A model generated the notes under the pieces. The model ran no database searches. It was not told the DNA's origin and saw nothing but the letters and a program-made list of their open reading frames with translations. A stretch of DNA of 64,000 nt from Paenibacillus sp. FSL R5-0912 (lineage in GTDB: Bacteria > Bacillota > Bacilli > Paenibacillales > Paenibacillaceae). Positions 47,979 through 59,501 of this stretch are shown here, piece after piece; positions within the stretch are counted from its first letter, which is position 1, and each line of letters begins with the position of its first letter. The stretch covers positions 4,836,001 through 4,900,000 of the forward strand of contig NZ_CP009282.1 in the NCBI RefSeq assembly GCF_000758605.1. The letters run 5' to 3'. Made by a program: the position numbers and the translations under genes.

Positions 47979-48096
47979 TCCCTATTCACCTTCTGTTCCT
48001 CAATCTGTCCACGTCTTTAAATATTGATGATCTGACCGCTGCGCTCTTGCGTTATTAAATTCAAAAACCAAACAAAATTTTGATAACAGGTAAGTC

Positions 48097-48436
48097 GTAA
48101 CTGCGGTGAGTTTGGACTTTCGGCCGCTGTTATATTTAGATTCTAGTCATACGCTTAATAGATTGAACTTAAAATGAATCCAATGAGATGTTGTTCATAA
48201 CTGCGGTGAATGTTTGGACTTCCGGCCGCTGTTGTCTCCGGATTTCTTGATTCTTACCGCTTATAGCGATTGAAATCCGGTGACAAAGGCGGACGCTGTC
48301 GCTCCTACAGTTCCAAAATTCCCCTCCGTTATTCTCATCTGTTATTGTCTTCTTCAGTTCAAGCTATATAGCGGATGAAATCTAAATACAAAGGCGGACG
48401 CTAACGCTCCTACAGTTCCAAAATCCCCTCCGTTAC
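48097..48436 (+). repeat. Outer hairpin repeat, interrupted by a second copy
   Basis: An old, diverged copy of the 135-nt hairpin element. The left arm GTAACTGCGGTGAGTTTGG begins at 48097; the right arm ends in TCCCCTCCGTTAC at 48436. The inner stem ATTTAGATT (48133-48142 region) still pairs with AATCTAAAT near 48380. Between these the younger copy 48198-48332 sits in the loop. The whole lies in the parE-parC gap. Confidence 0.75.
48198..48332 (+). repeat. 135-nt hairpin repeat, inner copy
   Basis: It has the same two arms as the others: TAACTGCGGTGAATGTTTGG at the left and TTCCCCTCCGTTAT at the right. The inner stem TTGTCTCCGGATTTC pairs with GAAATCCGGTGACAA with one mismatch. Length is exactly that of the copy at 57536-57670. 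No reading frame of note is inside. Confidence 0.85.
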
Positions 48437-48563
48437 TTTCCCTTGTATCAGTTTATCAAGACATAGTTCACCATCCATTGAATTCAAGAACCAACCGCTG
48501 CGCGTAAACCGATCATCAAAAAATTAAAAACAGCGGAAGTAATCGTTACTTCCCCACTAACCC

Positions 48564-53713: not shown

Positions 53714-53784
53714 CGCGGCTGCGGTGATTTTGGGCTTCCGGCCGCTGTTGTCCGCTCCTACAGTTCCAAAATCCCCTCCGCCGC
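53714..53784 (+). repeat. Deleted copy of the hairpin repeat
   Basis: Left arm GCGGCTGCGGTGATTTTGGG through TTCCGGCCGCTGTTGTCC is fused directly to the right arm GCTCCTACAGTTCCAAAATC, ending TCCGCCGC. The central ~65 nt (the inner stem) are missing, so the unit is 71 nt. Confidence 0.75.
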
Positions 53785-54246: not shown

Positions 54247-55035
54247 TTATTTACCGATGAATTCTTGAACCCAGTAATTATTGTCAAAGCCTACGCCGAT
54301 GTAGTTGAAATTCGTACTCAGAATGTTAGCCTTATGGCCCGGGCTGTTCATCCAGGCAGTCATAACTTCCTGCGGCGTTTTCTGGCCCATTGCGATATTC
54401 TCTCCGGCTGCCTGATAAGTAATACCGAACGCGGACATCATATCAAAAGGCGATCCATAGGTCGGGGAAGTATGGGAGAAATAGTTGTTCGTACGCATAT
54501 CCGTAGCCTTGGCCGCTGCCACTTTGTTCAGGCTGTCCAGTGCGGAGACAGGAGCCAGTCCTGCAGCAGCGCGTTCTTTGTTCACCAGGGCTACAACCTG
54601 CTGAATGTAGCTTGAAGCGCTGTCTGCGACAGCTGGAGCTGGTGTAGCTACTGGCTTAGCTGTGGCCACAGGGGCAGCCGTCGGTGCTGGTGTAACAGCA
54701 GGCTTAGCCGTTGCTACTGGCGCAGCTGTGGCTACTGGTCTAGCTGTCGCTACTGGTACAGCGGTAGCCACTGGCTTAGCTGTTGCTGCCGGGGCTGTCG
54801 CTACCGGATTCTTATAAATAACGGTTTGGGATACGGTGAACGTATTCCCGTCAAATACAAATGCCTTCGAATTGTACTGTGTGAAATATTCCATGAATTT
54901 TGCGAAATTCGTATCTGAAGCGGTTGCCGTAGTGGCTCCAGCTGCTGCGCTTGCCTGTAATGGAAGTGAAATGCTAAGTGCCATAACAGCGGCTACACTT
55001 CCACCTATCATTGCTCTTAAAGTCTTGCTTTTCAT
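54247..55035 (-). CDS. Secreted CAP/SCP-domain protein (YkwD-like)
   Basis: A 262-residue secreted protein. The signal peptide (MKSKTLRAMIGGSVAAVMAL to the ASA-A cleavage region) is followed by ~50 residues, then a ~60-residue linker of repeated PVATAKPVATAVPVATARPV-type units, and then a C-terminal CAP domain with VNKERAAAGLAPVSALDSLN, YFSHTSPTYGSPFDMM, GENIAMG and YWVQEFIGK. The CAP tetrad (His, Glu, Glu, His) is largely visible. Function: often sporulation or envelope proteins; not defined. The linker and the copy-number variation it invites are the only oddities. Start ATG follows AAGGAGATGGCAGA. Confidence 0.9.
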   Translation of the reverse strand: MKSKTLRAMIGGSVAAVMALSISLPLQASAAAGATTATASDTNFAKFMEYFTQYNSKAFVFDGNTFTVSQTVIYKNPVATAPAATAKPVATAVPVATARPVATAAPVATAKPAVTPAPTAAPVATAKPVATPAPAVADSASSYIQQVVALVNKERAAAGLAPVSALDSLNKVAAAKATDMRTNNYFSHTSPTYGSPFDMMSAFGITYQAAGENIAMGQKTPQEVMTAWMNSPGHKANILSTNFNYIGVGFDNNYWVQEFIGK

Positions 55036-57344: not shown

Positions 57345-57419
57345 TCTGTCGCTCTCCCTTACAAAGGCATTTGCCTATAGAATATGAGAGTGAGGGGGAA
57401 AGGGTGTTTATGTGCCTGG

Positions 57420-57520
57420 GGCTGCCGAGACGCTTGAGTATGAGCGTCAACGTGAGCGTGGAATACGTTAAGAGCGTCGAATGCATTAAGAGCGTGAGGG
57501 CATACATGCGTTAAAAGATT
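57420..57520. repeat. Short direct repeats (18-nt period)
   Basis: GAATACGTTAAGAGCGTC is followed by GAATGCATTAAGAGCGTG, with further loose GAGCGT units upstream. No gene is in this stretch. Confidence 0.5.
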
Positions 57521-57535
57521 AGGAAAGGTGCGGCC

Positions 57536-57670
57536 GTAACTGCGGTGAATGTTTGGACTTCCGGCCGCTGTTAGGTTTGGATTTCCTGATTTTGACCGCG
57601 TTCGCGGTAGAAATCCAAACCTAAAGGCGGACGCTATCGCTCCTACAGTTCCAAACTTCCCCTCCGTTAC
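57536..57670 (+). repeat. 135-nt hairpin repeat, clean single copy
   Basis: The reference copy. Left arm GTAACTGCGGTGAATGTTTGG; right arm ending TTCCCCTCCGTTAC. The inner stem TTAGGTTTGGATTTC pairs perfectly with GAAATCCAAACCTAA and is capped by a small ACCGCG-TT-CGCGGT hairpin. It lies about 190 nt upstream of the WG-repeat gene start. Confidence 0.9.
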
Positions 57671-57748
57671 TCTCCACCTTTCTGCAGCAAAACCAAGGTC
57701 ACTGGCACAAACTACATCAAAGCATAAACTGCAACCCTAAGAGCAGCA

Positions 57749-57773
57749 CAAAAACACCCTTTCAGAGGGTGTT
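57749..57773 (-). terminator. Isolated terminator hairpin
   Basis: AACACCCT (57753-57760) with AGGGTGTT (57766-57773), followed on the minus strand by TTTTTG. No gene ends here, so it may belong to a lost gene. Confidence 0.55.
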
Positions 57774-58086
57774 AGCCGGATGTTCAAGGGCTGCTTCGCC
57801 TGCCCTTTCACTTGTTATTGGGGTTCTGCAGCTACGTGCGCTGGCATTGGAGAGAAAAAAGAGCAACTTCACTATCACTACTTCCTCTTCAATATAAAAT
57901 CCTGCACCAAATACAACATTTATACACCTGGTTACTTTTCGGGTGTGCTGCACACTTAAGTGTGCAGATATTTGGCATGGTTGTGGAGCAACGTTGCGAC
58001 AAAATCAACAATCTCAAAGCAAAAGGCGTTTGCGAAATACCGCAAACGCTTAAGATGCTCCCTCCCACCCCGGTGAGGTGATGGGA
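57774..58086. other. Intergenic stretch with a perfect 20-bp palindrome
   Basis: No recognised gene; several short overlapping frames look like noise. CTGCACACTT-AAGTGTGCAG (57948-57967) is a perfect palindrome. GCGTTTGCG...CGCAAACGC (58025-58048) is another inverted repeat. The stretch separates two hairpin-repeat loci. Confidence 0.45.
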
Positions 58087-58473
58087 GTAACGAAGGTAAA
58101 GTTTGGAACTGGAGGTACGGCAGCACCATTCTTGCATTCAATCGAAATGTGAGATGGACTATGAACTGTTAACCTATATAAGGTAAGAGTAACGGAGGAG
58201 ATTTTGGAACTGTAGGAGCGATAGCGTCCGCCTGAAAGCTTTCCAAAGGAAAGCTCACTTCGGAAGCATACTCTTGTTTGGATTTCTACCGCAAACAGCG
58301 GAATAAAATCAGGAAATCCAAACCTAACAGGGGCCGGAAGTCCAAAACTCACCGCAGTTACGATCATACCTGATATTTAAGATTTCCAGTTCATTTTACA
58401 TCTTACATGGACATTGAATGCAAGAAATCCGGGTGCACCAGCACCCGGAAGTCCAAACATTCACCGCAGCTAC
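58087..58473 (-). repeat. Outer hairpin repeat containing another copy (nest B)
   Basis: Read on the minus strand, the right-hand arm AGCTGCGGTGAATGTTTGG starts at 58473 and the left arm ends at GTAAC (58087). CTTGCATTCAAT (58131-58142) pairs perfectly with ATTGAATGCAAG (58413-58424), and AACTG (58164-58168 region) with CAGTT near 58387. The younger copy 58189-58361 lies in the loop. Confidence 0.75.
58189..58361 (-). repeat. Hairpin repeat, inner copy of nest B (173 nt)
   Basis: It has the same arms in reverse orientation: GTAACGGAGGAGATTTTGG at the left and ACTCACCGCAGTTAC at the right. The inner stem GTTTGGATTTC pairs with GAAATCCAAAC. About 40 nt extra after GTCCGCC contain a small AGCTTTCC/GGAAAGCT hairpin, which explains the greater length. 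Confidence 0.85.
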
Positions 58474-58493
58474 GGCTAATCACCGAACCACAA

Positions 58494-59501
58494 TTATTTC
58501 TTCGAAGAATATTTACGCATATCGAACGAGACAGCTGCGATGATGATGAGGCCTTTGATGATCAGCTGGTAGTAAGGGCTGATGCCGATAAAGGTCAGAC
58601 CGTAGTTGATCAGGGTGAAGATGATAACACCGACCAGGACACCCGGCACAGTACCGATACCGCCTGTTGTGGATACGCCGCCGACTACGCAAGCCGCGAT
58701 GGCATCAAGCTCGTACATGTTACCATAGTTGTTGGTAGCGCCGCCTGTTCTTGCAGCTTCAAGCACACCGGCCAGACCGTAAAGGGCACCAGCGATAGCG
58801 TAGATGTAGATCAGGTTCTTGGAAACGTTGATACCGGAAACCTTAGCAGCCTGCATGTTGCCGCCGATAGCGTACATGTTCTTACCCAGTTTGGTTTTGT
58901 TGAACAGCACCCAGACCACGGCCGCGACCGCCAGGGCTATGAGAACGATGTAAGGTATTGAATATTGGCCGCTGCCGATAAAGCCGGAGCCGATTTTGGT
59001 GAAGTCAGGACGCAGACCACCGATTGGCTGCGATTGGTTAGGGTCCATATCGAAGTACAGGGAGTTAAGTCCGTACACGATGAGCATGGTACCCAGGGTA
59101 GCGATAAATGGCGGTACATTCAGCTTGGAGACAATGATACCATTGACGAGACCGCAGAGCAGACCGGCAACAATGGCAATCAGGATGGGAAGCCATACTT
59201 GGACCTGCGGCATATCAGGGAAGAACCGGCGTGAGTAATCCGGTATCTGGAGCATGGAGGCGGAAATAACCGCCGTGAAACCAACTACCCGGCCTGCTGA
59301 CAAGTCGGTACCCGCTGTGATGAGGATAAAGGCTACCCCCAGCGCGATAATTACGCGTGTTGACGACTGAATCAGTACGTCACGCAGGGTGTTGATGGAC
59401 ATGAAGCTTGGTTCATATATGATGATCCCCATAATCAGCAGTATCAGCACGATGTAAATTGCGTTTTGAGTCACAAAGGACTGAGCTTTTTTAACGTTCA
59501 T
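58494..59501 (-). CDS. mglC: Galactose/methylgalactoside-type ABC permease
   Basis: A 335-residue BPD-2-type inner-membrane permease of the MglC/RbsC family, with about eight to ten helices. Family segments: LGVAFILITAGTDLSAGRVVGFTAV, VNGIIVSKLNVPPFIATLGTM and AGVLEAARTGGATNNYGNMYELDAIAACVVGGVSTTGG. ATG 59501 follows AAGGGGGAT. Last gene of the mglBAC-like operon. It differs from RbsC mainly by a longer N-terminal part and the Asp-Leu-Ser motif, which fits MglC better, but the substrate could be another monosaccharide. Confidence 0.85.
   Translation of the reverse strand: MNVKKAQSFVTQNAIYIVLILLIMGIIIYEPSFMSINTLRDVLIQSSTRVIIALGVAFILITAGTDLSAGRVVGFTAVISASMLQIPDYSRRFFPDMPQVQVWLPILIAIVAGLLCGLVNGIIVSKLNVPPFIATLGTMLIVYGLNSLYFDMDPNQSQPIGGLRPDFTKIGSGFIGSGQYSIPYIVLIALAVAAVVWVLFNKTKLGKNMYAIGGNMQAAKVSGINVSKNLIYIYAIAGALYGLAGVLEAARTGGATNNYGNMYELDAIAACVVGGVSTTGGIGTVPGVLVGVIIFTLINYGLTFIGISPYYQLIIKGLIIIAAVSFDMRKYSSKK

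Follow-up and report, generated by a model that had tools for sequence, protein, structure and literature searches.

In the nest at 58087-58473 of the window (nest B), a complete inner element of a short hairpin repeat family lies inside the tip of an older, diverged copy of the same family. The window is the whole 64-kb stretch of DNA that was analyzed (C1:4836001-4900000, from a genome totaling 7,718,525 bases). The repeats were classified as a new family of IS630-type MITEs characterized by RNA-like conservation and by self-nesting restricted to the tip. Its members are probably miniature non-autonomous elements that are moved by an IS630-type transposase and carry an RNA-hairpin core, and their insertions into the tip probably survive because the fold is kept.

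Nested copies in the analyzed window

The following features were assigned to the two nests and to a solo copy of the family.

58087..58146, plus strand: left arm of the older outer copy of nest B (repeat match to the inner left end; weak profile match, 9.9 bits; G008/G041 alignment)
58129..58142, plus strand: outer apical stem of nest B, 5' strand (perfect 14-bp complement of 58413-58426)
58147..58408, plus strand: inner element of nest B as delimited by its terminal repeats, ~262 nt (ends ATGTGAGATG..GAAC / GTTC..CATCTTACAT)
58189..58361, plus strand: inner core of nest B, long form with a 39-nt extra module (profile, 108.9 bits)
58409..58473, plus strand: right arm of the outer copy of nest B (profile, 36.5 bits; model positions 78-138)
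58413..58426, plus strand: outer apical stem of nest B, 3' strand (perfect 14-bp complement of 58129-58142)
48096..48154, minus strand: right arm of the outer copy of nest A (profile, model positions 90-138; un-nested orthologues L147 and L127)
48155..48370, minus strand: inner element of nest A as delimited by its terminal repeats (terminal repeats; core 48196-48331 at 127.5 bits)
48371..48437, minus strand: left arm of the outer copy of nest A (profile, model positions 1-90 ending at 48437; orthologues)
57535..57671, minus strand: solo copy of the family, short form (profile, 136.5 bits)

Nest B is also present in two other genomes (G008 and G041), which share the rbsC-side flank and in which the inner terminal repeats are clearer (..AAGATGAAC..). 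The ends of the inner element were read against these two sequences, and its exact first and last bases are inferred. A previous sequence-only reading had described the inner unit as a 173-nt copy; these coordinates hold for the core, whereas the element as delimited by its terminal repeats is ~262 nt long. The AACTG/CAGTT pair, formerly assigned to the outer stem, is read here as part of the inner terminal inverted repeats (ATGTGAGATG..AACTG / CAGTT..CATCTTACAT). Mechanical detection returned 47-nt inverted arms (58129-58175/58380-58426), plus direct repeats common to the inner and outer ends, and the family profile recognized the inner core (58188-58362) as well as the right half of the outer copy (58414-58474). 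The folding energy of nest B is far below that of dinucleotide-shuffled sequences (z-scores of -9.7 as DNA and -8.65 as RNA, with 0/100 shuffles as low in each case). An un-nested orthologue of nest B was absent from the set of loci compared.

The 39-nt module (GAAAGCTTTCC..GGAAGCATA..; window 58230-58275, L228, and L230) is found in the inner nest B copy of this genome and of G008 and is missing in the G041 orthologue, a difference that amounts to the exact gain or loss of a hairpin module inside the element.

Nest A (48097-48437, minus strand) is real too and provides a clearer example than nest B; its locus is nested in two further genomes (L049 and L236). An interpretation of its outer arms as an extended stem of the inner element was ruled out by the un-nested orthologues. 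The presence of two nests within 10 kb, both of them confirmed, had been taken as an argument against chance, which is weakened by the fact that nests A and B are shared with other genomes.

Two other short features were observed in the window. At 53727-53782, the right end of a minus-strand copy is fused to the left end, the middle being gone. The region 54633-54800 contains coding-like repeats with a spacing of 18 bases (CTGGTGTAGCTACTGGCTTAGCTG.., six overlapping copies), which are unrelated to the hairpin family.

Size and distribution of the family

With the inner nest B copy as a query, at least 65 matching pieces were identified in this genome (40 of 101 first-look candidates were scored). 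Patterns for the left and right ends gave 53 and 73 matches, respectively, compared with 0 and 4 for the reversed-pattern controls. These matches group into 76 clusters, with six additional places, and stretches from most of the clusters contain 73 profile matches, of which 59 score 60 or higher (nest halves being counted singly). Both terminal repeats are present in 81 copies from our own and the related sets, including 52 copies of 210-219 nt and 18 copies of 250-259 nt. Thus, family elements are mostly 210-260 nt long, and the longer form contains the 39-nt extra module.

In total, 2,031 exact instances of an 18-base left motif are distributed over 66 of the 100 genus genomes. The matches listed include repeats of named species of Paenibacillus, a genus of soil bacteria, one genus label being 'Bacillus sp. 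FJAT-27264'. A search of Rfam gave 0 matches at threshold in the 64-kb window, and the region 57400-58500 gave 7 weak matches, all of them under the gathering score. No account of this Paenibacillus family was found in a search of mainly open-access literature.

Position and orientation of nests

A search for two left motifs located 76-106 bases apart identified 20 same-orientation nests in 14 of 100 genus genomes (0 for the reversed-pattern control), and clustering by flanks assigned these nests to 12 loci. The tip location proposed for nest B was supported: as judged by eye, the junction lies at the outer apical loop in 11 of the 12 loci (a count that excludes the G057/G081 ladder described below), typically as CCGC/TATATAG, where the slash marks the junction. 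The junction of nest L232 is located 8 nt to the 3' side of the tip. Five nests (L227, L231, L238, L242, and L244) have lost part or all of the right outer arm.

The tip contains 58 of the 500 TA steps in the scanned interval (11.6%), and the occurrence of 11 out of 12 junctions there has a binomial probability of ~5e-10 under a TA-only model. Uniform insertion into noncoding DNA would place ~4.0 nests (both orientations) within this interval and 0.5 within the tip, a rough expectation that uses the noncoding fraction of one window and ignores shared ancestry. By this rough comparison, nesting is commoner than random insertion would predict, and the sequence-only reading is not refuted on this point. 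Two neighboring spacing ranges, used as controls, gave two matches each, a partly contrary result. At 45-75 bases, both matches are the ladder locus (G057 and G081), itself a nest; at 107-137 bases, one match is the ladder locus of G081 and the other (G055) is no nest but two copies head to tail, the first of them shortened.

A pattern search for a reversed inner copy gave 0 cases in 100 genomes. Of the 115 aligned copies, 82 carry the right motif used in this search in exact form, compared with 100 for the left motif, and the sensitivity is thus only moderately lower. The orientation bias of solo copies alone gives a probability of 0.22 that all 12 loci have the same orientation, so the common orientation of the nests is not separate evidence.

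Several loci deviate from the usual outline. In L141:80-340 (P. phytohabitans), a full inner copy is bounded immediately by an outer left end (TTTGGAACT) on one side and an outer right end (GGCCGGAAGTCC) on the other, and looks like a replacement of the entire outer hairpin. A variant outer copy is found in L239, L245, and L115, where the left arm past TTTGGAACTG continues as ..GGCATCGGAAGGAT.. and not as the usual core.

Un-nested orthologues and the ladder locus

Locus alignments revealed the outer copy without an inner one at three or more nest loci, the orthologues being chosen among the matches listed of 169 filled/empty pairs. Un-nested orthologues are available for nest A (P. silagei L147, which carries CCGCTAGGCC at the insertion site, and P. 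tritici L127), for L229/L240 (L269 of this genome, P. phytohabitans L035, and P. piscarius L071), and for L241/L246 (P. auburnensis L095 and Paenibacillus sp. HW567 L137). Presence or absence alone gives no direction, and insertion is favored over loss because each inner copy possesses a complete set of ends. The proposal that a nest is one family member inserted in another is upheld by these ends and by the outer-only orthologues at the three loci.

A ladder-like arrangement, with arms spaced 70-71 nt apart, was observed in L248 (G081, ~1500-2000) and L249 (G057, ~1500-1760). It comprises two left and two right arms in G057 and four left and three right arms in G081; thus, the number of levels changes between species. 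The ladder, with its two to four levels located outside the tip range, may have grown by another route.

Terminal repeats, target site, and candidate transposase

The terminal inverted repeats have the form TATATAG/A..TGAAC.. and enclose the hairpin core, and the profile of 135 family ends reads TATATAAATTGAACTTAA. A search for an autonomous relative through terminal-repeat copies (40 matches, 18 places read) revealed no pair flanking a gene, and a candidate was found via a Pfam domain: an IS630-type element of 1151 bp (C1:628206-629356) with HTH_33 and other domains in one frame and DDE_3 (5.6e-39) in another. Its ends match the family ends at up to 15 of 18 positions. On the family end profile they score 20.7 and 20.6, values that are reached by 18 and 19 of 1,085,502 positions, respectively, some of these being themselves family ends; the scores of the IS630-type element equal those of good family ends.

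Among the exact TATATA ends, C precedes in 37 of 60 and G follows in 37 of 57 cases, and the IS630-type element also has C and G at these positions. Judging from the end sequences, these flanks would fit a TA target within CTAG, for which IS630 elements reportedly have a preference. In the arrangement C/TATATA..TATATA/G (slashes, element boundaries), the palindromic TATATA masks a TA duplication, and the un-nested orthologues have diverged at the site. CTAG alone is no proof of IS630, since a Pseudomonas MITE with a CTAG or YTAA target has a different presumed transposase (PMC3189936).

Conserved fold of the core

The core was analyzed in an alignment of 115 of 119 candidate short-form copies, from which four odd or truncated rows were excluded; the rows were picked by profile score, which favors canonical folds in the alignment. 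The consensus core hairpin contains 32 pairs, and compensatory changes were found in 21 of them. Pairing is kept in 97.5% of the cells vs. 90.8% after shuffling. The number of doubly changed cells is 226 vs. 47.3 in shuffled alignments (0/500 shuffles as high), which indicates covariation beyond column composition, although these shuffles do not keep relatedness and slid controls gave 29-91. Quasi-palindrome correction via template switching could mimic covariation.

The fold differs between the strands. The consensus folds at -68.9 kcal/mol in the sense and -60.1 kcal/mol in the antisense orientation, the sense strand being lower in 108 of 115 copies, and the ratio of G-U to A-C mismatches is 240:39 in sense and 149:112 in antisense. 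Such a bias is expected if sense RNA is what selection keeps; a strand-specific single-stranded form of DNA may also lie behind it.

Orientation relative to neighboring genes

Gene predictions were made with a basic in-house caller. From the related loci, a total of 123 near-complete copies was taken, and 22 were dropped at edges; the 101 placed copies include 75 in sense to both neighbors, 5 in antisense to both, 12 between convergent genes, and 9 between divergent genes. In this genome, 40 of 58 placed copies are in sense to both neighbors and 7 are in antisense to both. Nest B is one of the cases that are antisense to both adjacent genes, which makes an RNA role at this particular site doubtful. 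Replication direction as the sole determinant of copy orientation was rejected on weak evidence: all three well-scoring copies of this genome that lie between genes opposing replication follow the genes, but a partial copy, located at 456783 and with a score of 23 that falls below the cut, runs the other way.

Proposed mechanism and alternative explanations

Based on the similarity of the ends, a putative IS630-type transposase encoded by a two-frame gene would move the elements into TA sites, frequently within a CTAG-like context. Once cotranscribed with a neighboring gene, the core would act as an RNA hairpin affecting mRNA processing or stability, comparable to ERIC or Correia repeats. A copy landing in the loop would merely lengthen the stem, so that the old fold survives and a stacked hairpin is kept, whereas copies landing elsewhere or reversed would be lost. 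A preference of the transposase for the small TA-centered palindrome at the tip may contribute.

Self-nesting at the hairpin tip holds, and a direct preference for tips is the main alternative to survival. We regard it as somewhat unlikely that the transposase truly prefers the tip, either as an extruded cruciform or as a TA-centered palindrome (e.g., CCGCTAGCGG), so that old copies are hot spots. Such a preference would agree with the location of 11 of 12 loci at the tip, which holds only 11.6% of TA steps, with the CCGCTAGGCC of the un-nested P. silagei orthologue of nest A, and with the TA present in tip columns of 44 of 115 aligned copies; a precedent is IS1272, which replaces inverted-repeat targets (PMC5678879). 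However, survival of tip insertions alone yields the same pattern, CTAG also occurs in the core outside the tip, at about the same frequency (tip, 3; other columns, 8 of 11), and the flanks of the 81 full-length copies are not inverted repeats (2.19 of 8 positions complementary vs. 2.31 after shuffling, by a measure that takes no account of bases in a loop and failed to detect two copies known to be nested). The flanks of solo copies thus speak against hairpin tips as a general target, and the earlier suggestion of self-targeting is upheld only in part, as far as self-nesting at the tip is concerned. A further extension of the argument, in which the hairpin family grows via its own tips, old copies docking new ones, the transcribed hairpin lengthening unbroken, and ladders being kept as functional RNA, seems to us unlikely. 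The outer levels of the ladder in this docking-site reading amount to one in G057, and in G081 the outer arms number three on the left and two on the right.

Two explanations dispense with an IS630-type insertion. Growth of a palindrome at one locus, by template switching or inverted duplication and with no insertion, is a very improbable source of the nested arms. The G057/G081 ladder does resemble arm duplication, and the outer arms of nest B pair perfectly over 14 bp in this genome and imperfectly in G008 and G041; yet each inner copy has its own terminal repeats and matches copies elsewhere in the genome, and the un-nested outer copies refute palindrome growth for nest A, L229/L240, and L241/L246, the ladder excepted. 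Mobility of the RAYT/TnpA-REP type, with a Y1 transposase acting on single-stranded hairpins as in REP/REPIN systems, had been named from the sequence as a possibility to check and is improbable in the extreme. The family does consist of hairpin elements that are intergenic and strand-biased, and the genome contains seven Y1_Tnp genes, one of which is separated from a family copy by ~1 kb that includes a predicted gene. These genes show no matching ends in the places inspected: the Y1_Tnp elements examined there (four of six similar ones were compared, ~99% identical over 1.67 kb) contain neither the family core nor a matching terminal repeat at their ends, and the long terminal inverted repeats of the family are shared with the IS630-type element instead. 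IS630-type mobility combined with survival of tip insertions is the reading that we consider most likely.

Comparison with known repeat families

MITEs of the IS630/Tc1-mariner group, to which RUP of Streptococcus pneumoniae belongs, resemble the family described here in that they are short and gene-free, share terminal inverted repeats with an IS630-type element of the same genome, and have a TA-containing target. The family differs from them in its long, strand-biased, covarying core and in self-nesting restricted to the tip. A biochemical model for this group is ISY100 (PMC2170065). For the pneumococcal BOX, RUP, and SPRITE repeats, nesting mixes families, and the available portion of the account states no tip or orientation rule (PMC3049150).

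ERIC and Correia (CREE/NEMIS) repeats are likewise intergenic transcribed hairpins, ~100-150 nt long, with possible effects on mRNA, as far as the same portion describes them (PMC3049150). They come from different hosts, and the likeness noted here is one of description. Variants with internal inserts and TA-type ends also occur among ERIC and Correia repeats, and we know of no tip nesting in them. IS1272 (IS1182 family) resembles the nests in that its insertion is directed at inverted repeats, but it removes the target hairpin and makes no target duplication, whereas in the nests the outer hairpin is kept around the inner one (PMC5678879). REP/REPIN sequences with RAYT share with the family the intergenic palindromes and a transposase acting in trans; the family differs in element length and ends and in the lack of a Y1 transposase with matching ends.

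Nested repeats are usually seen as accidents of tolerated insertion, whereas here the tip position is consistent across loci and species. The un-nested orthologues, together with a likely transposase in the same genome, allow target choice to be separated from RNA-structure selection for a bacterial MITE. The family thereby provides a ready model of a mobile element with a conserved part that behaves like a structured RNA.

The terminal repeats of the family were also observed on a second short element of ~110 nt with another core (L317:2984-3090, L319:2987-3100, and L320:2911-3020), which suggests that unlike cargoes share one kind of ends. In L314:2981-3020, two terminal repeats are fused without a core (~34 nt), perhaps as a result of an internal deletion or as a trace of excision.
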